From the NCBI GenBank assembly GCA_017399915.1, contig JAFQAS010000040.1, positions 1 through 42,535 of the forward strand: a stretch of 42,535 bases of DNA, written 5' to 3'. This DNA comes from Muribaculaceae bacterium. GTDB taxonomy: Bacteria > Bacteroidota > Bacteroidia > Bacteroidales > Muribaculaceae. The position numbers and the translations under genes are program-made. Below the pieces are notes generated by a model. It was not told the DNA's origin, ran no database searches, and saw only the letters and a program-made list of their open reading frames with translations. Shown here in pieces: positions 7,559 through 34,556 of the stretch. Position 1 is the first letter of the stretch, and each line of letters opens with the position of its first letter.

Positions 7559-8113
7559 TTATTTAATAACTTCAAGTTTCAAAGAATCAAGCACTTGTAC
7601 GATTTCAGGAGATTCCAATACAGTGCCTAAATCATCAAATTTTTCGGTTGTAGGATAAATTTCGGCAACGAAATATCCGCCTTCACCAACTTCAGGAGCC
7701 TCTACATAATATTCATAACCCACAAGTGTAGGTTGATCATTGATTCTTTCGCTAATGTTTTTGCGGAAACCTTTACGACCTGCAATATTAATATCTTTAT
7801 AACCTTCTGAATCTTTATAATTTGCTGCCCAAGTGGCAAAAGTTTGGTCATAAACTTCACCCTTTGTGAAACCTATTGCAATTTTATCACCTGCGAGATA
7901 GAGTGGTTTTGAGATACTTGCTGCTTCTTGAATTGCAGCAGGAATTGCAGCAGGGAGAGTGTCGTTTAATTTATAAACACCTTTAGGCACAACTGCCGAT
8001 ACTTTCCAACTGTTGTTGTAATCTTTACTCAATGTTTCATACTCAACACTTGATCCACATGATGTTACAAACATCGCTACTGCTGCCAATGCAGCAAAAA
8101 ACATTTTTCTCAT
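7559..8113 (-). CDS. Lipoprotein of unknown function, under a TGCA-box promoter
   Basis: 184 residues. Lipobox VTSC gives Cys19, then GSSVEYETLSKDYNNSWKVSAVVPKG. The mature part resembles a compact alpha/beta module with alternating strands and an amphipathic helix (LPAAIPAAIQEAASI). It ends VQVLDSLKLEVIK. No family is recognised. It has its own promoter with a candidate activator box at 8195-8208, so I place it in the putative regulon of the AraC-type regulators at 15-17 kb. Confidence 0.75.
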   Translation of the reverse strand: MRKMFFAALAAVAMFVTSCGSSVEYETLSKDYNNSWKVSAVVPKGVYKLNDTLPAAIPAAIQEAASISKPLYLAGDKIAIGFTKGEVYDQTFATWAANYKDSEGYKDINIAGRKGFRKNISERINDQPTLVGYEYYVEAPEVGEGGYFVAEIYPTTEKFDDLGTVLESPEIVQVLDSLKLEVIK

Positions 8114-8163: not shown

Positions 8164-8208
8164 CAAAGTTAAATATTCTAACGAGACGATTATATGCAAA
8201 ATCGTGCA
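8164..8208 (-). promoter_or_regulatory. Promoter with TGCA-N6-TGCA activator box, for lipoprotein 7559-8113
   Basis: The -7 element (minus strand TAACTTTG) is the complement of 8164-8171. The palindromic box TGCAAAATCGTGCA occupies 8195-8208, leaving 23 nt between them. A further half-site TGCA lies at 8226-8229, 31 nt from the box start. The transcript would start near 8157 and the box centre would be near -44, a class II activator position abutting where -33 should be. Confidence 0.65.
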
Positions 8209-8246
8209 TAGTTTTGTCTTTATGATGCAATAATGAGTTTATCTGT

Positions 8247-9788
8247 TTATTTGATTAACGTTTTCTTGCCTTTTTGAATCACGATGCCGCGATAGTTATC
8301 ATTGACGGGTTGACCTTGTAGGTTATAGCGTGGGGCGTTTTCCTCAGTATCATCAACTTCTATGCCTTTTATGCCACTACCTTCACCATTATAAAACTTT
8401 CCATCGGTATATTCTAAAGACCAAAATTTGTTGTTAGCAACCACTATCTCCTCGGTGTAAAGAGAATTATTGTCGGGTTCGGTGGCATGCTTAAATACAA
8501 TTGTTGCTGAACCTGAAATATATTTGCTCAAATCGGGAAGATTGTTGACAAAATATGTTCCATTTTTAGTGTTTGTACTATTGAAAATTTGATTTTTATA
8601 GCATGCTATTGTTCTCAATTTGATATTTTTTGAAAGATTTAATTGAGAAATTAAGTTATTACTGCAATCTATATTAACCAATTTTGAATTATTCTCCACA
8701 TTCAATGCAGTTAATTGATTATTAGCGACATTGAGATTTGTTAATGCGGTGTTTTTTGACAAATCAATAGATTTCAAACTGTTGTTACTGCAATTCAATT
8801 CTTTAAGGTCGGTTAAAAATTCTATGCCTTGCAATGAAATGAGATTTTTGTTTGACACATCGAGCGAAGTCCATAGGTCAACTTTTCCGGCATATAAACC
8901 ATTAGGCAACAGCAGCACCTTGTTATAGATTGTTTTTGTGGCTGCCATTTTGGTCAATAGCGTGCCAAAATCATCATTAAAATATTCTGTATCATTATAA
9001 AAAACATGTTTAGTTATATATAATGCATTATCGTCGCCAAATAAATCTTTATTGTGAGTGATAGCTTTGTTGGTCGATGAATATTCGCCATTTACCACTC
9101 CCATATAATTTCCTCCATATGAGAATGTTTTAATGTTGCGAGAGTGAACGGCTCCGGCACCATTGTTATTCAATTTTAAGAAAGAGTTTTCAACTCTTAA
9201 CCAGCCGAGATCCCTTATAGATGCTTCAGATGAAGATGACGCATATGTGTAAGTTTCAACCATTGCTCCACCATTAATAATAACAGTTTCTGATCCTTCG
9301 TCGCCTATAATACATGTTGAATTTAAGGCATTTGCTTGCAAATAAATATTATCGATAATCAATTTTTTGCCATTCCCAATGGTAAGAGCATCCTCTTCTT
9401 CGCCCCAAAATCTAACTCTTTCACTATCTTGTGCAGTGATTGTGGTATTATTGTTTAATCTCACAGGTGAAGCATCTTTTGCTGCCAAATAGGCTCCTCC
9501 TATAAATACAATTGTTAATCCGTCAACATCGTCGTTCAAGATTGCACGATTGTAGCTGCCGGAGCGCTCAATCTTAATATTTTTAAGAGTGAGGGTTTTG
9601 GTGTTAGGGTCATATTTTACAAAATGTTCGCTACCGGCATTGTATGCTACAATATTACTACCTGTTACATTTGAGCAATTGTCGGAGGTAATACTTACGC
9701 CCCCAACTTTCAAACCATAGTTTGTCGCTCCCCAAAGTGTGGTCGAAACCAAAGCTAATGTCGCTAATAAGGTGTAAAATTTTCTCAT
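8247..9788 (-). CDS. Secreted leucine-rich-repeat protein with Bacteroidales C-terminal tail (paralogue of 12035-13795)
   Basis: 513 residues. Signal peptide 1-20 (ending TTLWG). Residues 21-260 form a beta-rich N-terminal module (YGLKVGGVSITSDNCSNVTG, LTLKNIKIERSGSYNRAIL) nearly repeated in the 586-residue protein at 12035-13795. Leucine-rich repeats follow at about 305-400 (LKELNCSNNSLKSIDLSKNTALTNLNVANNQL). The C-terminus, APRYNLQGQPVNDNYRGIVI and then QKGKKTLIK, is a tail common on exported proteins of this group and probably a sorting or anchoring signal. LRRs suggest protein binding at the cell surface; no ligand can be named. A hairpin upstream separates it from the gene at 9867-11147, but no promoter is seen, so it likely belongs to the operon starting at 13795. 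Confidence 0.8.
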   Translation of the reverse strand: MRKFYTLLATLALVSTTLWGATNYGLKVGGVSITSDNCSNVTGSNIVAYNAGSEHFVKYDPNTKTLTLKNIKIERSGSYNRAILNDDVDGLTIVFIGGAYLAAKDASPVRLNNNTTITAQDSERVRFWGEEEDALTIGNGKKLIIDNIYLQANALNSTCIIGDEGSETVIINGGAMVETYTYASSSSEASIRDLGWLRVENSFLKLNNNGAGAVHSRNIKTFSYGGNYMGVVNGEYSSTNKAITHNKDLFGDDNALYITKHVFYNDTEYFNDDFGTLLTKMAATKTIYNKVLLLPNGLYAGKVDLWTSLDVSNKNLISLQGIEFLTDLKELNCSNNSLKSIDLSKNTALTNLNVANNQLTALNVENNSKLVNIDCSNNLISQLNLSKNIKLRTIACYKNQIFNSTNTKNGTYFVNNLPDLSKYISGSATIVFKHATEPDNNSLYTEEIVVANNKFWSLEYTDGKFYNGEGSGIKGIEVDDTEENAPRYNLQGQPVNDNYRGIVIQKGKKTLIK

Positions 9789-9818
9789 AAATATCTATTT
9801 TATTGTTGTTAAAATCAA

Positions 9819-9851
9819 GGAGATTAGACTCAAATTTTAGAGCTAATCTCC
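9819..9851 (-). terminator. Intercistronic hairpin after gene 9867-11147
   Basis: Arms GGAGATTAG (9819-9827) and CTAATCTCC (9843-9851) form a 9-bp stem with a 15-nt loop, about 15 nt past the stop codon. The minus strand continues TTGATTTTAAC, a poor T-run, so it may be a partial terminator or attenuator. Confidence 0.45.
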
Positions 9852-9866
9852 ATGAATAATAATTAA

Positions 9867-11147
9867 TTATTTATAATTAACTTTTTGCTTTACGATTACT
9901 CCCATTGCTGCTTGAATGCGATATGAGTTTTCAGGCTTGCCTCCCGAATAGTTTTGTAATAAGCACCAACGATTAATAAAATAAGTTCCTTTTTCTTTGG
10001 TAATCACCGCAATGTCACAACTTCGATGAGTGATAGGGTAGGGCCATTCTTTTGATTGGAAATCTTTCCATCCACTTGTAATCAATACTTTTACGAATTT
10101 GTCGCCAAATTTATCTTTAGCGGCTCTTTCGGCACCGGCTTTTGTTGTTGCATCGACACTAACTGCCGTAGGCATATCGGCAACCGGAAAATCTTCGCTT
10201 GCCACATCATCGGCATACTCTTTTGTTTGCTCTTTAAGTTCTTTATATAAATCAACTACGGCTGTATAATCGGCGTTGTGTGGATTTTTTGGATGTTTAT
10301 CCATATGTTCCATAATCATATCAAGTTCACGCATCCATGTTACTGCTCCTTTTTTATTGCCGTTGTCAATAAATTCTTGAATTTGATTGATAGTTCCTAC
10401 TGCTGCAGAGCCTACGGTTTCGTATGCTGTACATTTGTCATATATTTCGCTTGCTTCACCGGTGGCTTTTGACCAACGTTGGAAACGATTATATTCAGTT
10501 TCATATAAGTTGATGGTTTCCCCTTTGCTATTCTTTGTTTTAAGGGAGTTTTGGTCACCACGCACTACCACTACTCGTCCCCAACGAAATGCTTCATGGA
10601 TGATATTGGCTCTCACATAGTAGCGATATGTTGCAGGATTGTTTGGGTCAAGCATAAATGCCGATAGATAGGCTGTCATAGGATATTCAACAATGGGAAC
10701 ATATACATTTCCTCGACTTGATTTATATCCCACAAATTCAGGAAGTGCATATCCGTCTCTTCGTGTTACAAAGCTATAATCGGCACAAGTTAATGCTCCG
10801 CAAAAATCAGAATACCCTTTTTTTACAACATTAGCTTTTGTGTCATAAAAATATGTGTTATCACCCTCTCCATAGGGTTGATATGGGAATAATTCGGGGT
10901 TGAGATCGGCAAGAGTTTTGGGATGTGCTGCATTTGTCGTTGATTCAATAGTTCCTCCTGTGGATTCTTCAACAACGCTATTTACAGTTTCTTTTGCACT
11001 TGATTTAATCTCCTTTTCTACTTTTTCTTTTGCTTTTTTTCCTAACCCTTTAGCTATTTTGCTAAATTGAGCATTTGCGCAGATAGGGTTAACGAATACC
11101 ATGGCAATAGCCAAAAACAAACATGTGATAAATCTGTTCTTTTTCAT
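9867..11147 (-). CDS. Secreted protein of unknown function
   Basis: 426 residues. Signal peptide 1-26 (ending ICANA) is followed by a Lys/Glu-rich amphipathic helix (FSKIAKGLGKKAKEKVEKEI), then a mixed domain beginning LADLNPELFPYQPYGEGDNTYFYD. The C-terminal third contains an all-beta region (DIAVITKEKGTYFINRWCLLQ). The initial helix followed by a folded body resembles periplasmic proteins of Bacteroidales that I cannot name. It lies 22 nt downstream of the paralogous lipoprotein gene at 11170-11967 and is co-transcribed with it. Confidence 0.7.
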   Translation of the reverse strand: MKKNRFITCLFLAIAMVFVNPICANAQFSKIAKGLGKKAKEKVEKEIKSSAKETVNSVVEESTGGTIESTTNAAHPKTLADLNPELFPYQPYGEGDNTYFYDTKANVVKKGYSDFCGALTCADYSFVTRRDGYALPEFVGYKSSRGNVYVPIVEYPMTAYLSAFMLDPNNPATYRYYVRANIIHEAFRWGRVVVVRGDQNSLKTKNSKGETINLYETEYNRFQRWSKATGEASEIYDKCTAYETVGSAAVGTINQIQEFIDNGNKKGAVTWMRELDMIMEHMDKHPKNPHNADYTAVVDLYKELKEQTKEYADDVASEDFPVADMPTAVSVDATTKAGAERAAKDKFGDKFVKVLITSGWKDFQSKEWPYPITHRSCDIAVITKEKGTYFINRWCLLQNYSGGKPENSYRIQAAMGVIVKQKVNYK

Positions 11148-11169
11148 CGTTAATATATTTTATATGTTA

Positions 11170-11967
11170 CTATTTTAATCCTTTCCAATCACCTATAATA
11201 TCCTGACAATGAGTATATGTTGACGGGCAATTATAAACTTTGTAAAGATTAGAGCCGTTTGCTTGAAATATTTCAACTTGTCGTTGCGCATATTCATAAA
11301 TATCGGTATCCCAACCTTTACAAAGGATATATACAAAAGTGTCGGTTCCACCTGTCACTTTTTGCGGTTTATTTGCCGAAGCACACATCTCAACAGTATA
11401 TGGTTCATAAGGGGTGTATGCATTTTGTGGGGTAGCATCTTTGAGTAGGGCAGCGGCCATATATCGTTGGACATACGAATCATCGGCACCCGATTCTTCA
11501 CGAGGAGTAATACGGTCTTTCAATATTCGCAATATACCATCAACGGTTGATTGACTATTACATAATAGTTTAAAACATTCTTCGCCGGTTGCGGCATCAC
11601 GCGCATATATTTCTATGGCCATGGGAATCATCGCAGCCGTGCCTTGAATTGATTTACCCAATAATCCGTTATATACATCCTTAAACTCAGCATATCCCGA
11701 AGGTATGTTTGTGAAAGTAACCCATGCAGTGGGAGTATCTCTACGTCCTGCCACCACTTCATCTGTTATTTCACCATTAACAGTATAAAAATGAGAGCCA
11801 TACGAGATTGCATTTCCTTCAATCACCGGTTCGTAATGGGTTTCATTGACGAGAGAAGCCCATTTATCCTTTTTAGAGTCACTCAAGTGATCTTCACAAC
11901 TTGATATGAAGCAAATGCCAACAATGCATAGCAACAAGTAAGATGTATTTAAAAATACTTTTCTCAT
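11170..11967 (-). CDS. Lipoprotein, paralogue of the one at 3887-4684
   Basis: 265 residues. Lipobox ISSC gives Cys24 (EDHLSDSKKD follows). It aligns over its whole length with the lipoprotein at 3887-4684: shared blocks WxxLVNExxYExxxEGNxxxYG, VYNGLLGKS, AAMIPMAxEIYARDxATGE, DSYVQRYxxAALLxxATPQNAY and the Cys-containing C-terminus CPSTYxxCQ. It lies between the large LRR gene (67 nt upstream) and the 426-residue secreted protein (22 nt downstream). Whatever its role, two copies have been kept in one cluster, one inside the AraC-box operon and one with an ordinary promoter. Confidence 0.75.
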   Translation of the reverse strand: MRKVFLNTSYLLLCIVGICFISSCEDHLSDSKKDKWASLVNETHYEPVIEGNAISYGSHFYTVNGEITDEVVAGRRDTPTAWVTFTNIPSGYAEFKDVYNGLLGKSIQGTAAMIPMAIEIYARDAATGEECFKLLCNSQSTVDGILRILKDRITPREESGADDSYVQRYMAAALLKDATPQNAYTPYEPYTVEMCASANKPQKVTGGTDTFVYILCKGWDTDIYEYAQRQVEIFQANGSNLYKVYNCPSTYTHCQDIIGDWKGLK

Positions 11968-12034
11968 ATTCTTTTATTTTTATATTCCTTTCAATTCAAA
12001 ATCTCCTTTAATTATAGAGAAGGGAGCATTTTTA

Positions 12035-13795
12035 TTATTTTACTAATATTTTCTTCCCTTTTTGAATCACTATGCCGCGATAATTATCATCGACCGGTTG
12101 ACCATTGAGGTTGTAGCGAGGAGCATTGTCGTCGATAGGGTCAACTTCAACACCTTCAACACCGGCTTCACCAAGATAAATATTTCCGTTGGTGTGTTTC
12201 AATGTCCAATTCTTACCCATAACAGTAATGGCTTGCTCTTGTGACATTGAGTTTTTCTCGGTATCGGACGATGACTTGAACACAAGTTCAGCATTATTAC
12301 TTGCTGATGGTGTGGGCAATTTATCCACAAACTGCTGTACATTCGCGCCATTTATTGCATTGTCGGAACAATTTAAATATTTAAAATTAGCACCACTATA
12401 TGCGTCGAATTTAAGACCTGTTAAATTGTTATTTGAACAATTCAATCTCGCTATGTTACCTACACTAATCTCAGTGAGTTTATTATTTTGACAATTAACT
12501 TCTTTCATATAATCAGCGTATGAAAGATCAAGGGTATTAAGTTTATTATCATTTATATCTAAGTATTTCAACATCCAATTTGCGCCTAGGTTAATCCCTG
12601 TCAATAAATTATTATTTACATAAAGATATTCTAAACTACTATTGTTTATAATATCTAACGACTCAAGTTTATTATTTCGGAGAGCTAAAGTATTTAACTC
12701 CTTGTTTTTAGACAAATCAATTGTTGAAAGAGAATTATTAGATAAATTTAATGTCGAAAGGTTTACATTTTTAGTTAAATCAACACTAGTCAGTTGATTG
12801 TCGTTGCAAATCAATGTTTGCAGATTGTAAAAATGTTCAATTCCTTTTAGATTTGCAATTGATTTCCCTGCCAAATCCATTTTTCTCCATTCTTTAATAT
12901 AGCCTGTATAGGCTCCGACCGGATAGGTATAATAGTTATATGGAAGTCCTTCAACAATGCCCGAACTTGGATTTTTTGCAAATTCATAAAGAGCCTGCCT
13001 GAAGTTGGCGTCAGGAAATACTGTTTCATCAGTTCTACAAACACCTACCGCTATTTGCGTTTGAAATGCACCAAATCTTTTTTTCTCGGCATTATAAACA
13101 GCTCCCATTACTATCGGGTAAGCACCTTCATGGGTAAATGAGCCAAGTTTTTCAATAGCGTAAGCATAACCAACTACATTAAAATAAGAGTCAGAGACCG
13201 TGAGAGAGGCAAAATCATATACTCCATTGTGGTTTTCGCTTTGGGCAAAAGCTATTACACAAGAATTATTCCTAACAATAAGGTTCTCTTTTCCGGTAGC
13301 ACCTTCAATGGCATTGGAATTGCTGGTAGAAACAGAACAATCATATACATTATCAAAAATCAAGGTCTTGCCATTTCCAACGGTAATACCATCTTCATCT
13401 CCACCATGCACATCAAGTTCACCACCTTCGGGGACAGTGATTGTGGTATTATTATTTAATCTCACGGGTGAAGAATCTTCGGCTGAGAGTTCATTTTTCC
13501 CAAGAAACACAATTTTCAATCCATCTACATCTTCATTCAAGATGGCACGGTTGTAACTACCGGTGCGTTCAATCAGGATATTCTTGAAAGTAAGAGTTTT
13601 TGTCGCCGGATCATACTTTATATAGTATTCATCGTCGGTAGCACTTGAATGTTTCTCAATATGTTCGCCCGTAATATTTGAGCAATTATCGGAAGTAACA
13701 TCAACACCACCCACGGTCAAACCATAGTCGGTGGCACCAAACGCGCTGACAGCAGTCAACGTGAAAATTGCAAAAAATGAGTAAAGTTTTTTCAT
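12035..13795 (-). CDS. Secreted leucine-rich-repeat protein, first gene of a TGCA-box operon
   Basis: 586 residues. Signal peptide 1-20 (ending VSAFG), then the same N-terminal beta module as the 513-residue protein (YGLTVGGVDVTSDNCSNITG, LTFKNILIERTGSYNRAIL). The LRR array is longer here, about residues 310-500, with repeats such as LQTLICNDNQLTSVDLTKNV and LEYLYVNNNLLTGINLG. The tail APRYNLNGQPVDDNYRGIVI then QKGKKILVK is nearly identical to its paralogue. I infer a surface LRR protein. Its promoter carries the activator box at 13853-13866. The genes downstream as far as 8247 have short spacers and no promoters, so they may be one operon with internal attenuating hairpins. Confidence 0.8.
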   Translation of the reverse strand: MKKLYSFFAIFTLTAVSAFGATDYGLTVGGVDVTSDNCSNITGEHIEKHSSATDDEYYIKYDPATKTLTFKNILIERTGSYNRAILNEDVDGLKIVFLGKNELSAEDSSPVRLNNNTTITVPEGGELDVHGGDEDGITVGNGKTLIFDNVYDCSVSTSNSNAIEGATGKENLIVRNNSCVIAFAQSENHNGVYDFASLTVSDSYFNVVGYAYAIEKLGSFTHEGAYPIVMGAVYNAEKKRFGAFQTQIAVGVCRTDETVFPDANFRQALYEFAKNPSSGIVEGLPYNYYTYPVGAYTGYIKEWRKMDLAGKSIANLKGIEHFYNLQTLICNDNQLTSVDLTKNVNLSTLNLSNNSLSTIDLSKNKELNTLALRNNKLESLDIINNSSLEYLYVNNNLLTGINLGANWMLKYLDINDNKLNTLDLSYADYMKEVNCQNNKLTEISVGNIARLNCSNNNLTGLKFDAYSGANFKYLNCSDNAINGANVQQFVDKLPTPSASNNAELVFKSSSDTEKNSMSQEQAITVMGKNWTLKHTNGNIYLGEAGVEGVEVDPIDDNAPRYNLNGQPVDDNYRGIVIQKGKKILVK

Positions 13796-13821
13796 AAATA
13801 TTTGTTTTTAATATTATTTGG

Positions 13822-13898
13822 TAAAATTAGATATTAGGAATCAAAAAGGCCATGCACAATCGTGCATGGCCTTTGCATTATCGTGCAAATTGCACAAT
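13822..13898 (-). promoter_or_regulatory. Promoter with tandem TGCA boxes, for the LRR operon
   Basis: A weak -7 element (minus TAATTTTA, complement of 13822-13829) is followed, 23 nt upstream, by TGCACAATCGTGCA (13853-13866). A second full box TGCATTATCGTGCA lies at 13874-13887, and a half-site TGCACAAT at 13891-13898. The weak -7 and missing -33 fit an activator-dependent promoter. Confidence 0.65.
13845..13874 (-). terminator. Terminator hairpin whose apex is the TGCA box
   Basis: AAAGGCCATGCA (13845-13856) and TGCATGGCCTTT (13863-13874) pair perfectly around the loop CAATCG. On the minus strand the stem ends in CCTTTTTGA. This can terminate the transcript of the lipoprotein gene ending at 13928, while the same DNA is the putative operator of the next promoter. 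Confidence 0.7.
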
Positions 13899-13927
13899 AA
13901 GAGACGTTTTTGGAGCAAAAAATATTA

Positions 13928-14464
13928 TTATTTCTTCATTGATTTGATGATAGGTTCGAGGTATGCATTATATACCGATGCACTATCAGTAGGGAATGTA
14001 AATTGAGCATTGAGGCATTTTGTACCACCTTGATGAACCAAGAAGCAGATTTTTTCAACGCCTTCGCAGTTAGAGCGAACAATTACTACATTGTCTTTCA
14101 CTTCTGAAGATGTAACAGTTTCTTGAAGCGCTCTCAACATTGCTTCATAGTTGGTTTTAGATTCTTCCAATTGGCTTTCAGTGGGACCATCTTCGTTGAA
14201 AGTAACAGCCAATTTACAGCTACCATCTTCGTTGTCGATATTTACATTTTTCACACCTTCTGACATTTCAAAGCCAACGTGCATTTTGTCGGGATAGATA
14301 AACGACATGCCATTGTTTTCATACTTAGCAAAACCTGCAGGGATTTCAGTTGCAGCAGATCCTTCAGCTCCTTCTTGAGCTTTTTCGTTACTTGCAGTGC
14401 TACTGCTACATGCTGTAAAAATCATTGCTACGGCAGCAAATGCCATCAAAATTGTTTTTTTCAT
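13928..14464 (-). CDS. Lipoprotein, third gene of the small AraC operon
   Basis: 178 residues. Lipobox FTAC gives Cys19, followed by a Ser/Ala/Glu-rich linker (SSSTASNEKAQEGAEGSAAT). The mature domain starts GFAKYENNGMSFIYPDKMHVGF and ends VYNAYLEPIIKSMKK. This strand-helix pattern resembles small periplasmic alpha/beta folds (PsbP/DcrB-like shape), but that is only an impression. It begins 14 nt after the YARHG gene's stop and is probably co-transcribed with it and the small AraC gene. Confidence 0.7.
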   Translation of the reverse strand: MKKTILMAFAAVAMIFTACSSSTASNEKAQEGAEGSAATEIPAGFAKYENNGMSFIYPDKMHVGFEMSEGVKNVNIDNEDGSCKLAVTFNEDGPTESQLEESKTNYEAMLRALQETVTSSEVKDNVVIVRSNCEGVEKICFLVHQGGTKCLNAQFTFPTDSASVYNAYLEPIIKSMKK

Positions 14465-14478
14465 CGTTTATAAGTTTA

Positions 14479-15216
14479 TTAATAGTTAGTACCAAACATA
14501 AAGTCTTCGATTGAATATTCGGGCATATATTGACCCAGGTTCTTGCGCAAGTCATCGGGCATAGCCTCCTCAGCCATGATGAGTGCAAGATTAGTTTTCT
14601 CGATAATGCTTAGTTTTATCTTTTTATTATCGTTATTAGGCTTATACCATTCCATCGACGAGAACAATGCTTGCATATCTTCCGACTCAAAACGGTGGCC
14701 ATGTCGGGCATATATCATATTACGCATTATTCTTAATTCGGACTTTGGAAATCGGCTCAAATAGGGGCGATTGAGCAAACTTGTAGTAACCGAACACACA
14801 CGATTGCCCACGAGTGACGGATAGGCCGACAGGCAATAATCAACATCATCGGGGGTTAACAAAAGTACCCATTCCAACGTTTTATTTTTATTCAACACCT
14901 CAAGGAAATACATTCCGTCTTTACGGATATATTTCACAGTGCAGCCAAATGTTACATTAAATGGAGCGTCTTCGGCTTGATAACTGGGTTGAAGTGTGTA
15001 TTCATTTTTTGATTTATGTTTTAATGTCAATTCACGCCAATCGCCGTTGTAATCAACACCAGTAAAATAAACGATTTTGCCCATACGAATCTCCTGGCAA
15101 GTGTAAAGACATTCTCCATCAAAGAATTTATCGCCAACCGCAATCCTTTGTCCATACACGCAATTACATAGAATAATCGCTAAAAACAATATCAATATTT
15201 TGCCTTGCGATTTCAT
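14479..15216 (-). CDS. Secreted YARHG-domain protein
   Basis: 245 residues from the chosen ATG at 15216, the first residue of a clear signal peptide (MKSQGKILILFLAIILCNCVYG). The open frame extends back to 15387, but that would overlap the AraC gene. Near residues 175-200 it reads LRIMRNMIYARHGHRFESED, followed by AxFSSMEWYKPN. This is the YARHG domain, an extracellular domain of unknown function named after that motif, with the usual F..M.WYKP end. It starts 13 nt after the small AraC gene ends. The pairing suggests an envelope function controlled by that regulator. Confidence 0.8.
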   Translation of the reverse strand: MKSQGKILILFLAIILCNCVYGQRIAVGDKFFDGECLYTCQEIRMGKIVYFTGVDYNGDWRELTLKHKSKNEYTLQPSYQAEDAPFNVTFGCTVKYIRKDGMYFLEVLNKNKTLEWVLLLTPDDVDYCLSAYPSLVGNRVCSVTTSLLNRPYLSRFPKSELRIMRNMIYARHGHRFESEDMQALFSSMEWYKPNNDNKKIKLSIIEKTNLALIMAEEAMPDDLRKNLGQYMPEYSIEDFMFGTNY

Positions 15217-15229
15217 GGTGAATAAGTTT

Positions 15230-15595
15230 TTAATTATTGACAGCATTTCCGCCCCGATATTGCGAAGGCGACATGCCATGAAAACGACGAAATGCGCGAG
15301 AAAAACTTGTAGCATCTTCAAATCCGCATCTGAAAGCCACTTCCGATATTGCCATATCGGTGTTGTCACGCAATAAATTACATGCATGAGTAAGGCGTAT
15401 TTTCATAGCATATTGTTGGGTTGTCATTCCGGTAATTGCCTTTACTCGGCGAGTCAACTGCCCACGAGTGATATACATCTCCGAAGCAATCGATTCTAAC
15501 GACATTCTACCCAAAGCCATCTCTGCTTTTATGTGAGAGGATAATCGTTCGAGGAAATTTTCGTTTTGTTTGTTATTTTCTTTCTTCTTTTCCAT
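15230..15595 (-). CDS. Stand-alone AraC-type DNA-binding protein
   Basis: 121 residues, essentially only the double helix-turn-helix of AraC/XylS proteins with a charged N-terminal tail (MEKKKENNKQNENF). HTH1 is SLESIASEMYITRGQLTRRV; HTH2 is AISEVAFRCGFEDATSFSRAF, ending SPSQYR. It has no sensor or dimerisation domain. By hand count it shares about 63 of 105 aligned positions with the DNA-binding end of the TPR regulator at 15730-17364, and the second recognition helix is identical (DATSFSRAFRR). So both should read the same DNA. It could relay, boost or compete with the membrane regulator. It heads an operon with the YARHG and lipoprotein genes and carries the box in its own promoter. Confidence 0.85.
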   Translation of the reverse strand: MEKKKENNKQNENFLERLSSHIKAEMALGRMSLESIASEMYITRGQLTRRVKAITGMTTQQYAMKIRLTHACNLLRDNTDMAISEVAFRCGFEDATSFSRAFRRFHGMSPSQYRGGNAVNN

Positions 15596-15625
15596 TGATT
15601 TTTTTTGCCATAATATTTAGCGATG

Positions 15626-15698
15626 TAAAGGTATATATAACAATAATGCCAAGACCTTGCACAATCGTGCAAGGTCTTGGCATTATGATGCAAAATCG
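15626..15698 (-). promoter_or_regulatory. Promoter with TGCA box, for the small AraC operon
   Basis: The -7 element (minus TACCTTTA) is the complement of 15626-15633. The box TGCACAATCGTGCA is at 15658-15671, 24 nt away. A partial copy, TGCAAAATCG, is at 15689-15698, starting 31 nt beyond the first. The leader would be about 24 nt. Confidence 0.65.
15643..15686 (-). terminator. Long terminator hairpin with the TGCA box at its apex
   Basis: A perfect 19-bp stem (15643-15661 with 15668-15686) closes on the loop CAATCG. The minus strand then continues TTGTTATATATACC. It follows the TPR-AraC gene by about 45 nt. Its outer arms (CCAAGACC/GGTCTTGG) differ from those at 13845-13874, but the inner 14 bases are identical. 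Confidence 0.65.
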
Positions 15699-15729
15699 CT
15701 ATAAATGGACATTTTATGCGTTTTTTTCG

Positions 15730-17364
15730 CTATTCATTGCGATATTGTGATGGCGATTTATCGAATATGCGACGAAATGCCCGAGAGAAACTTGTGGCAT
15801 CTTCAAAACCACATTTAAGTGCCACTTCCGAAATAGGAGTTTCTTTGTTTTCTATCAACAACAATCGAGCGTGTTCAAGACGTATTCGCAACACATATTG
15901 TTGGGTGGTGACCCCTGTAATTGATTTTATGCGACGATTTAATTGCCCGCGAGTGATACATAGATTAGAGGCAATAGACTCTATCGACACATCGCCTTGT
16001 TTCATGCTGTTTTTCACTTCGGCAACCAATCGTGAAAGAAGCTCTTGGTCTGAAGCACTCAATTCTTCTTGCTCGTTTACCGGTTCTTGCTCGTTTTGAG
16101 GCTGTAATTCTTTGATTATCGTTTGCAATGCCGATTCACGCAATCGCATCTTTCGTTTCATAAAAAACCACACTCCACCAACTAATAGCACTAATAAAAT
16201 GCTACCCCAAATGATTATCTTCTGTATTTTAGCTTTTTGTAATTCATTTTCGTGTTGCAACCAATCGGTGCCAAACTCGGCATTATATCGTGCAAGACTC
16301 TCGGCCGAGGTGAGATTATATAACGAATCCTTCAAGTCGTTAAAGCGATTTAGTTCGATTTTGGCGCTATCGGGATTGCTGCTCCAAAGACTCTCATACA
16401 ATCCTTTGCGAGAATGCATCTCGTTTCCTCTGTCGCCAATAGCCACAAATATATCGGCAGCTTTGCGATAATAATCCACCGCTTCATTGTCGCGGTTTTG
16501 CCCCACCAGTGCCATTCCCATTTTGTTGCAAGAAATAGCAAGCGATTGCTTATTTCCCACCTTTTCTAAATATGGGATTGCCTGTCGGAGCAATTTTTCA
16601 GCTCCTTTATAATCATTTAAGCCTACCAACACCGCCGCTTTTTGCGACAAACGCACCATAATCTTGTGTTCATTCCCTAATTTTTGCTCAATATTACATG
16701 CCTCGTTGATATACTTTAATGCTTCCTTGCCGTTGCCGAGTGCATGATACACCTCCGAAGCCATACCATTTAGCACGGCCATGCGCGCCGGGTTGTTGGC
16801 CTGCTTGGCAAGTTCGATAGCTTTGAGAATGTATTGTTCGGCCTCTTTGGGCTGATTGGCTCCGATATATATGCCGGCGAGGGTGTTGAGCGACGAGCTC
16901 ATCACATCGGGGTCGCCCGATTTTTCGTCAAGTTTATAACATTGCTTGGCATAATTTGCCGCCTGCTCATAATTAGATTGACGGAAATATATCAACGATA
17001 TCAAACTCAAATAATTAGCCCTATCTTCATCATTATTGCATAATGGCAGTGCCTGTAAACCATATTTCAATGCTTGAGGATAGGCCTGATGGGCATAGAA
17101 ATATTCACTCGCCCAGTACCACACTTGTTGGTTTACCGAATCGCGAGGAGCGCTTGCCTCAATCTTTATAGCTTCATCTGTAATCTTTGCTTCATGAAAC
17201 AATTGCATCACATTATTTGCAATGGTAATATATTCATTGCCACTTGAGGCATCATATTCTGAAATTTGTTTCTCAACAGTAGCTATGTCTGTGCTCGCGG
17301 CACAGATTGGAGCAGAAGACAACAAAAGAAATAGTACCGCACAAATAAACGACTTAAATTTCAT
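15730..17364 (-). CDS. Membrane-spanning TPR sensor fused to an AraC-type DNA-binding domain
   Basis: 544 residues. Signal peptide or first membrane segment at 1-22 (FICAVLFLLLSSAPICAA). Residues about 70-330 are tetratricopeptide repeats (ANYLSLISLIYFRQSNYEQA; LNTLAGIYIGANQPKEAEQY; NKMGMALVGQNRDNEAVDYY), expected in the periplasm. One transmembrane helix lies at about 382-402 (IIIWGSILLVLLVGGVWFFM) with Lys/Arg on its inner side (KRKMRLR). A short linker follows, then an AraC double HTH at about 440-543, ending SPSQYRNE. It is a one-component transmembrane regulator, a layout known in Bacteroidota. I infer that it senses an envelope signal and activates the box-bearing promoters, including its own. 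It lies upstream of all its likely targets. Confidence 0.85.
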   Translation of the reverse strand: MKFKSFICAVLFLLLSSAPICAASTDIATVEKQISEYDASSGNEYITIANNVMQLFHEAKITDEAIKIEASAPRDSVNQQVWYWASEYFYAHQAYPQALKYGLQALPLCNNDEDRANYLSLISLIYFRQSNYEQAANYAKQCYKLDEKSGDPDVMSSSLNTLAGIYIGANQPKEAEQYILKAIELAKQANNPARMAVLNGMASEVYHALGNGKEALKYINEACNIEQKLGNEHKIMVRLSQKAAVLVGLNDYKGAEKLLRQAIPYLEKVGNKQSLAISCNKMGMALVGQNRDNEAVDYYRKAADIFVAIGDRGNEMHSRKGLYESLWSSNPDSAKIELNRFNDLKDSLYNLTSAESLARYNAEFGTDWLQHENELQKAKIQKIIIWGSILLVLLVGGVWFFMKRKMRLRESALQTIIKELQPQNEQEPVNEQEELSASDQELLSRLVAEVKNSMKQGDVSIESIASNLCITRGQLNRRIKSITGVTTQQYVLRIRLEHARLLLIENKETPISEVALKCGFEDATSFSRAFRRIFDKSPSQYRNE

Positions 17365-17417
17365 AATGATAGCGTATTAGGGTTTCACACAAAGATAAGA
17401 AAAAATATTAGTTTTCA

Positions 17418-17462
17418 CAAAAATAAAAAACATTTAACACTTCGACCATGCAAAAACGTGCA
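17418..17462 (-). promoter_or_regulatory. Promoter with TGCA box, for the TPR-AraC gene
   Basis: The -7-like element (minus TATTTTTG) is the complement of 17418-17425. The box TGCAAAAACGTGCA is at 17449-17462, again 23 nt away. A better -7 (minus TATCTTTG, complement of 17390-17397) also exists nearer the gene, so a second, box-independent promoter is possible. Autoregulation is inferred from the box. Confidence 0.55.
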
Positions 17463-34109: not shown

Positions 34110-34556
34110 TTAGAATAACATTCCAATCATAAATCCCAATCCAAAAGAACAAATGGACCACCCAAACTCATGTAAATACATCACTAGAATTCGCTTTTCT
34201 TTAAATGTTTCCAAAATCTCTGTTAATCTTTCTTTTTCAACATATATATTATATACGATATAGTATATAATAATAGAAAAGACTACCGAAAATATTAACA
34301 ATACATCATCTTCCGTTATATTCAAATTACCTATAGCTATATTCAAATTTTCTATAATCCCTAATTTGCGGAAAACAATCTGCAAATTAATAATATGTGG
34401 AAGTATAATTGTTGTCAAAAAAAACACAACCGACATATTTTCCTCTTGACCTCTAAAATTTCCACTCGCTTTTGTACTTTTATAAACGCAATAAAAAAGA
34501 TAGTCAAATATTCTGACAATACAAGCTCCAACAAAACGAATGCAATCCAATATCAT
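34110..34556 (-). CDS. Four-helix membrane protein, candidate immunity protein for the RHS tip
   Basis: 148 residues, strongly hydrophobic, with about four membrane helices: near 5-27 (GACIVRIFDYLFYCVYKS end), 41-62 (SVVFFLTTIILPHIINLQIV), 83-106 (LLIFSVVFSIIIYYIVYNIY) and 129-148 (GWSICSFGLGFMIGMLF). It starts 3 nt after the RHS stop (TAG-TTT-ATG), so it is translationally linked. The location directly after the variable RHS tip, the small size and the very AT-rich composition are those of an immunity gene. A membrane immunity protein would match a membrane-acting toxin. There is no sequence-family support; this is inference. Confidence 0.6.
   Translation of the reverse strand: MILDCIRFVGACIVRIFDYLFYCVYKSTKASGNFRGQEENMSVVFFLTTIILPHIINLQIVFRKLGIIENLNIAIGNLNITEDDVLLIFSVVFSIIIYYIVYNIYVEKERLTEILETFKEKRILVMYLHEFGWSICSFGLGFMIGMLF

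Follow-up and report, generated by a model that had tools for sequence, protein, structure and literature searches.

A predicted TPR-AraC regulon with 21-bp tandem boxes in a Muribaculaceae contig and its relatives

Boxes upstream of four minus-strand units

Analysis of a 42,535-nucleotide stretch of DNA from a Muribaculaceae bacterium (assembly GCA_017399915.1, contig JAFQAS010000040.1, positions 1 to 42,535; hereafter the window) identified a cluster of 14-bp boxes upstream of four gene units, one of which begins with the gene for a regulator that combines a TPR superhelix with an AraC-type DNA-binding domain (TPR-AraC). The best explanation, and a supported one, is a local regulon that AraC-type proteins would read. 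Judged from sequence, the boxes are likely operators of TPR-AraC, and probably also of the small AraC protein encoded next to it, both being predicted activators of the local promoters. Their targets would be predicted secreted leucine-rich-repeat (LRR) proteins and lipoproteins. The main structure is a tandem of two boxes 21 bp apart. It was overlooked in the preliminary description of this DNA, and the box noted there is its proximal half at three of the four promoters.

The preliminary description had placed boxes of the form TGCA-NNANCG-TGCA at 8195, 13853, 13874, 15658 and 17449, and all five were confirmed as exact copies of TGCANNANCGTGCA (0.00 expected; none in 100 shuffles). No further copies were present in the window. 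The plain TGCA-N6-TGCA pattern alone was weak (5 in the window vs 1.22 expected, with 1 of 100 shuffles reaching 5), and the signal thus resides in the inner letters. As the genes concerned are on the minus strand, the working box was written TGCACGNTNNTGCA. The sites are labelled P1 (17449), P2 (15658), P3 (13853) and P4 (8195), and the window's own genome is G000 (2.48 Mb, 81% complete). Four minus-strand units were found downstream, in agreement with the claim that the boxes precede genes on the same strand. The box at 13874 exists, but it is the distal half of a tandem with 13853 and not an additional copy.

The boxes were not randomly scattered across the genome. G000 contains nine exact copies, five of them in the window; of the other four, three are within open reading frames (ORFs); the fourth is intergenic, and the 5 kb examined downstream of it has no gene on its strand that reaches 70 amino acids. 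Random repeats are ruled out by these genome-wide counts and by the tandem distribution in 149 genomes described below. Of three looser tandem matches in G000, two were rejected: C11:91262 sits inside an ORF, and C73:24540 lies in a 77-amino-acid ORF and faces away from a clear gene, with no -7 element evident by eye. The third is at C50:128715.

Tandem and promoter geometry

At P2, P3 and P4, two 14-bp boxes are directly repeated with a spacing of 21 bp, and 23-24 nt separate the end of the proximal box from a -7 element. The distal box is looser than the proximal box at all three, and the weaker distal halves are those of P2 and P4. The promoter elements are as follows:

17449-17462, minus: P1 box TGCACGTTTTTGCA (single), preceding the TPR-AraC gene
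17418-17425, minus: P1 -7 element TATTTTTG, 23 nt from the box
17390-17397, minus: P1 alternative -7 element TATCTTTG, preceded by TTTG at 20 nt
15679-15692, minus: P2 distal box TGCATCATAATGCC, preceding the proximal box by 21 bp
15658-15671, minus: P2 proximal box TGCACGATTGTGCA
15626-15633, minus: P2 -7 element TACCTTTA, 24 nt from the box
13874-13887, minus: P3 distal box TGCACGATAATGCA
13853-13866, minus: P3 proximal box TGCACGATTGTGCA
13822-13829, minus: P3 -7 element TAATTTTA, 23 nt from the box
8216-8229, minus: P4 distal box TGCATCATAAAGAC, two mismatches against the tandem pattern
8195-8208, minus: P4 proximal box TGCACGATTTTGCA
8164-8171, minus: P4 -7 element TAACTTTG, 23 nt from the box

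The gaps of 23 (17449), 24 (15658), 23 (13853) and 23 nt (8195) reproduce the fixed spacing claimed earlier. The same spacing was observed in relatives: in a collection of 23 TGCA-box sites (15 tandem rows and 8 P1 rows), part of which was gathered with a spacing filter, a -7 element with at most one mismatch was present at 23 nt in 20 and at 24 nt in 3. G010 and the P3 and P4 copies of G003 and G008 had been dropped before counting as near-copies of kept rows. Exact TAnnTTTG was found downstream at 23 nt in 12 of the sites, at 24 nt in 2 and at 50-52 nt in 4 others; when one mismatch was allowed, additional elements were scattered from 5 to 52 nt. At a distance of 21 bp, the 15 tandem rows reached 7-9 of 9 positions in the partner score, whereas no other distance between 12 and 44 gave more than 7; because these same sites supplied the pattern, the scores are descriptive and not an independent test.

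The -7 elements are perfect TAnnTTTG at P1 and P4, and 7/8 matches at P2 and P3. According to the available part of PMC7366714, the consensus of Bacteroidota primary-sigma promoters is TTTG at -33 and TAnnTTTG at -7. None of the four -7 elements has a TTTG at 17-23 nt on its upstream side; the nearest lies 25 nt upstream at P1, 12 at P3 and 25 at P4, with none within 45 nt at P2. A sigma-70 scan of the window was uninformative (40 sites vs 39.7 expected).

The absence of TTTG at P2-P4, together with a P2 -7 octamer (TACCTTTA) that stays imperfect and is identical in all seven species of the genus with the regulator, is what activator-dependent promoters would be expected to show. These observations also bear on whether the boxes could be operators of the same AraC proteins that serve as repressor sites. 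The proximal box is near the usual place of a -33 element, and a complete ordinary promoter lies downstream of the single P1 box in the window, both of which would suit repression. Set against this, TTTG is lacking at P2-P4, the imperfect P2 element has been kept, and the boxes leave the -7 element uncovered. We consider repressor sites unlikely.

Hairpins at P2 and P3

Two of the proximal boxes form the tops of hairpins:

15643-15686, minus: P2 hairpin, 20-pair stem, containing the proximal box, right after the TPR-AraC gene; probable terminator
13845-13874, minus: P3 hairpin and probable terminator behind the P2 unit; 13-pair stem, with the proximal box inside the hairpin

Their folding energies are -35.7 kcal/mol (z -9.1) at P2 and -28.5 kcal/mol (z -5.9) at P3. 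In an alignment of the P2 stem (seven sequences, six distinct), 97.2% of cells pair. Two pairs outside the box are changed on both sides, which 12 of 500 shuffles also reach, and two cells within the box break pairing. The T-run after the P2 stem is poor in the window and T-rich in relatives, while TTTTTG overlaps and follows the P3 stem. A terminator scan listed the P2 hairpin and not that of P3 (total of 11 vs 7.9 in shuffles).

The boxes could on these grounds be merely parts (the loops and upper stems) of intrinsic terminators that separate tandem genes, with no operator role. The position of the P2 and P3 boxes on strong hairpins directly after upstream genes, the scan result for P2 and the two-sided stem changes are all consistent with this. 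No significant hairpin was found at the box sites of P1, P4, G061 or G012 (z 0.10, -1.09, -0.19 and -0.42, respectively), and a terminator would leave the 21-bp partner box, the fixed distance to the -7 element and the tie to a single helix class unexplained. As boxes are kept at these four sites without a significant hairpin, this explanation was rejected as very improbable. The P2 and P3 elements are probably both operator and terminator of the upstream unit at once.

Distribution in relatives

In the genus of the window, the regulator was present in 7 of 12 genomes, each with an adjoining small AraC gene. The P1 and P2 sites were found in all seven, their boxes having no more than one mismatch; P3 was seen in G000, G003 and G008, and P4 in G000 and G008. 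Across the family, a close TPR-AraC homologue (E<=1e-50) was present in 26 of 149 genomes. A tandem search, which used no spacing filter, found the tandem at one mismatch or fewer in 12 of the 26 homologue-bearing genomes and in 0 of the 123 others (Fisher p 6e-11, a value that overstates independence because genomes and loci are related). The reversed-pattern control gave no match in 149 of 149 genomes, although its different words make it a lenient control. Sites were kept at orthologous places in four genera. Together with the clustering and the kept spacing, this supports the earlier claim of a local regulon.

All 13 genomes with a class A recognition helix (defined below) own a tandem site, 12 at one mismatch or fewer and G160 at three. 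The small AraC gene adjoins the regulator in 11 of the 13, the exceptions being G126 and G160, and the order of regulator, tandem and small AraC was likewise found in 11. A homologue of the window LRR proteins lies a few genes downstream in 11 of the 13, while the contig ends first in G006 and G012; in G126 and G160, the tandem directly precedes the LRR gene. The recurring unit is the regulator, the tandem, often the small AraC gene, and then an LRR gene.

In G126, the one-mismatch tandem is unlinked to the regulator, and the site beside the regulator has two mismatches. The unlinked site (G126:C25:66418; L112 6419-6453) lies 24 nt before a -7 element, TATCTTTG, upstream of a gene for a 176-amino-acid lipoprotein. 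This is likely a distant member of the regulon. The similarity of this lipoprotein to those of the window was not significant (best E 0.058).

A search of the order (295 genomes, E<=1e-60) identified a homologue in three genomes besides G000, at four new loci. One of these (L132) carries a 32-bp repeat with a class-C-like box, and another (L133) a 21-bp repeat, with no -7 element nearby by eye. Neither kind of repeat was found at L134 and L135.

Separately, two facing tandems were observed in G012 (L005, G012:C53, 442-476 and 501-535), in the interval that separates the TPR-AraC gene from that of the small AraC; just one of them points to a -7 element and a gene.

Recognition helices and their boxes

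The class A helix, LNR[RH][IV]K-x2-[IL][TA]GVTTQQY, was present in the first helix-turn-helix of every class A regulator (13 of 13), and RGQL[NT]RRVKA is common to the nine small AraC proteins inspected. Class B comprises six Prevotellaceae homologues (44-49% identical) and G061:C23, with a helix of the type F-Q-[FL]-R-Q-[RK]-L. These loci have no TGCA tandem; ACGAAATGA-like repeats 21 bp apart follow the stop codon. In class C, with the helix [EQT]FRRR, the repeats resemble TTGTAAG...ACAAG.

The repeat distance was also analysed without a motif, over lags 15-32 (18 lags) upstream of -7-like sites, with five of the 23 homologue loci omitted (open to the contig end or no stop in reach). The best lag was 21 in 7/7 class B loci, 7/9 class C loci (one best at 28, one without a -7 element), 8/12 class A loci (two of them tied with 31) and 0/2 loci of other helices, although these counts are not independent, as loci within one helix class are related. 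The remaining class A loci include three without a -7 element by the pattern, and G003, which fails because the interrupted gene misplaces the region. Of 620 -7-like sites in 17 loci, 24 had a 21-bp repeat of at least 10/14, and 13 of these are the sites discussed here; the remaining 11 are as many as were counted at lag 18, which has the largest number (11) among the other lags.

Further AraC-type proteins are present in these genomes, and one of them could in principle read the boxes in place of the linked TPR-AraC or small AraC. Across four genera, the tandem at one mismatch or fewer tracks the TPR-AraC of class A, it is lacking in all 123 genomes that have no close homologue, and homologues with different helices have different boxes in the same layout. 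We regard another regulator as extremely improbable.

Several other repeats were noted. A further class B homologue, at G126:C25:135032, has a 21-bp repeat by eye. In the Prevotellaceae loci L127, L128, L129 and L131, the distal ACGAAATGA box spans the regulator's own stop codon, so that the last codons overlap the operator. Downstream of TPR-AraC at L070 (G039:C21) and L132 (G230:C4), the repeats are 32 bp apart and 13/14 identical; as this is one helical turn beyond 21, it is possibly a variant operator spacing. A 14/14 repeat 21 bp apart near position 962 of L117 (G039:C21), minus strand, lies upstream of TAACTTTG and a 305-amino-acid ORF, and is perhaps another AraC-type operator. In the window itself, far from the regulon, a 13/14 repeat 21 bp apart was observed at 34294, minus strand, upstream of a -7-like TATTTTCG.

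Observations that weigh against the reading

A number of results count against the boxes being activator operators of TPR-AraC, in addition to the relatedness of the genomes noted above. P1, the regulator's own promoter, has a single box and no tandem. No partner box was present 21 bp upstream in any of the eight P1 rows, where the score at that distance was at most 4. The -7 element at 23 nt is kept in all eight; the perfect alternative -7 element closer to the gene forms, with its TTTG, a complete ordinary -33/-7 promoter 51 nt downstream of the window P1 box, and four of the eight rows (G000, G003, G006 and G008) have a second perfect -7 element at 50-52 nt. P1 is thus ambiguous between the -7 element at 23 nt and the ordinary promoter nearer the gene, and its box may act from farther upstream of that promoter, or may not be an activator site.

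The -7 elements of P2 and P3 are imperfect. The regulator is absent from 5 of the 12 genomes of the genus, three with only other AraC-type matches and two with none. The tandem at exactly two mismatches was found in seven further genomes, two of which (G102 and G148) are among the 26 with a close homologue; one two-mismatch site, in G073, was rejected as it falls inside an ORF. As assembled, the regulator gene has an interrupting stop in G003 (C26:67099-68727) and is split into two frames in G009 (C5:277605-279235), and the operator sites are intact in both. The class C regions are rich in T, and scores there are also fairly high at the neighbouring lags, 20 and 22.

The regulator, the small AraC protein and the downstream genes

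The genes of the four units are as follows:

15730-17364, minus: TPR-AraC regulator gene, 544 amino acids
15230-15595, minus: small AraC gene, 121 amino acids, DNA-binding domain only, first in the P2 unit
14479-15387 as listed, minus: YARHG-domain gene, with the probable true start farther downstream, at about 15216 (245-amino-acid ORF in relatives)
13928-14464, minus: predicted lipoprotein gene, 178 amino acids, last in the P2 unit
12035-13795, minus: LRR protein gene, 586 amino acids, first in the P3 unit
11170-11967, minus: DUF6935 protein gene, 265 amino acids, P3 unit
9867-11147, minus: gene for a 426-amino-acid protein without a family match, P3 unit
8247-9788, minus: LRR protein gene, 513 amino acids, P3 unit; LRR_4 match under the curated cut-off
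7559-8113, minus: predicted lipoprotein gene, 184 amino acids, P4

TPR-AraC is comprised of an N-terminal hydrophobic segment, a TPR superhelix, one further hydrophobic segment (about 377-403) with basic residues after it, and an AraC domain. Matches above the cut-off to HTH_18, a DNA-binding domain with two helix-turn-helix motifs, place both TPR-AraC (4.6e-24) and the small AraC protein (1.1e-25) among AraC/XylS-type proteins. No histidine kinase or receiver domain was found in TPR-AraC, where Pfam at E<=0.001 gave only TPR-type, helix-turn-helix and sub-threshold matches. The membrane segment was present in 12 of 12 aligned TPR-AraC proteins, and the N-terminal hydrophobic segment in 6 of 12, several having been retrieved without their start. 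We infer that the TPR part is periplasmic and that a single helix crosses the membrane.

The structure model of TPR-AraC had a mean pLDDT of 84.9 and a pTM of 0.59. Structure and fold searches returned AraC domains and TPR superhelices of a generic kind, headed by LGN and with Rap appearing from rank 25 on, with TM-scores by query length mostly below 0.5. The TPR region showed a weak match to the SusR family model, and the DNA-binding domain matched small AraC proteins such as SoxS. The model's match to peptide-binding TPR proteins such as LGN and Rap is what suggests a peptide as a possible signal.

The two LRR proteins (8247-9788 and 12035-13795) have a similar C-terminal segment, APRYNL-GQPV-DNYRGIVIQKGKK, which is sorting-tail-like and had no match in two family libraries.

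Proposed mechanism

The periplasmic TPR superhelix would sense a signal, perhaps a peptide, and the one membrane helix would relay it to the cytoplasmic AraC domain. Two AraC domains could then occupy the same face of the DNA, one at about -35 to -48 and the other at about -56 to -69, and from there aid RNA polymerase at promoters that are weak by themselves. The single-box promoter of the regulator would be read differently from the target promoters. The small AraC protein, whose own promoter has a tandem, would either amplify the response or limit it, and the proximal box of P2 and P3 would also be the top of a hairpin probably terminating the upstream unit.

A wider proposal, which we hold at somewhat less than even confidence, is that these proteins may represent an undescribed Bacteroidales family of membrane-spanning one-component activators. 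In such a family, a peptide-binding TPR part would gate the AraC domain without a phosphorelay, helix-class-specific 21-bp operators would lie right after the regulator gene, and class A would form a two-tier switch with a sensor-less twin for LRR and lipoprotein genes.

Comparison with known systems and significance

In Escherichia coli, the AraC half sites araI1 and araI2 form a direct repeat with a spacing of 21 bp, and the proximal half site is near -35. A loop-and-shift action of AraC is given in the available part of PMC6018408. E. coli AraC is soluble and binds arabinose, whereas TPR-AraC is a predicted transmembrane protein with a TPR sensor. The 121-amino-acid neighbour resembles SoxS (107 residues) in size and in being a DNA-binding domain only, but is paired with a transmembrane relative behind the same type of tandem.

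Among Bacteroidota regulators, the hybrid two-component systems (HTCS) are similar in combining an HTH_18 domain with membrane location and a sensor in the periplasm, as predicted for TPR-AraC, and in having a 21-bp direct-repeat operator (available parts of PMC3878776 and PMC11253607). The predicted HTCS operators of Bacteroides are direct repeats 21 bp apart on average (PMC3878776), and their similarity follows that of the DNA-binding domains (PMC3878776, PMC11253607), as far as the same parts go. Direct repeats of this AraC/HTCS type, with a spacing of about 21 bp, were present at P2, P3 and P4 and not at P1. TPR-AraC is not an HTCS, since no kinase or receiver domain was found, and its sensor is a TPR. 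It also differs in the DNA-binding-domain-only AraC gene that adjoins it in most class A genomes, and in the LRR and lipoprotein genes downstream, as opposed to the glycan-use loci of HTCS. SusR-like regulators are likewise membrane-linked Bacteroidota proteins with direct-repeat operators, but these are spaced 67 or 77 bp, as compared with 21 here (PMC3878776, available part).

A literature search for TPR-AraC regulators or LRR targets listed nothing that describes such a regulator together with these operators or targets. The 21-bp direct repeat has already been published for HTCS. For a type of regulator from uncultured Muribaculaceae and Prevotellaceae of the ruminant gut, the results provide a concrete and testable candidate operator and regulon, and the correspondence of helix and operator in three helix classes would let other unstudied TPR-AraC regulons be predicted from sequence.

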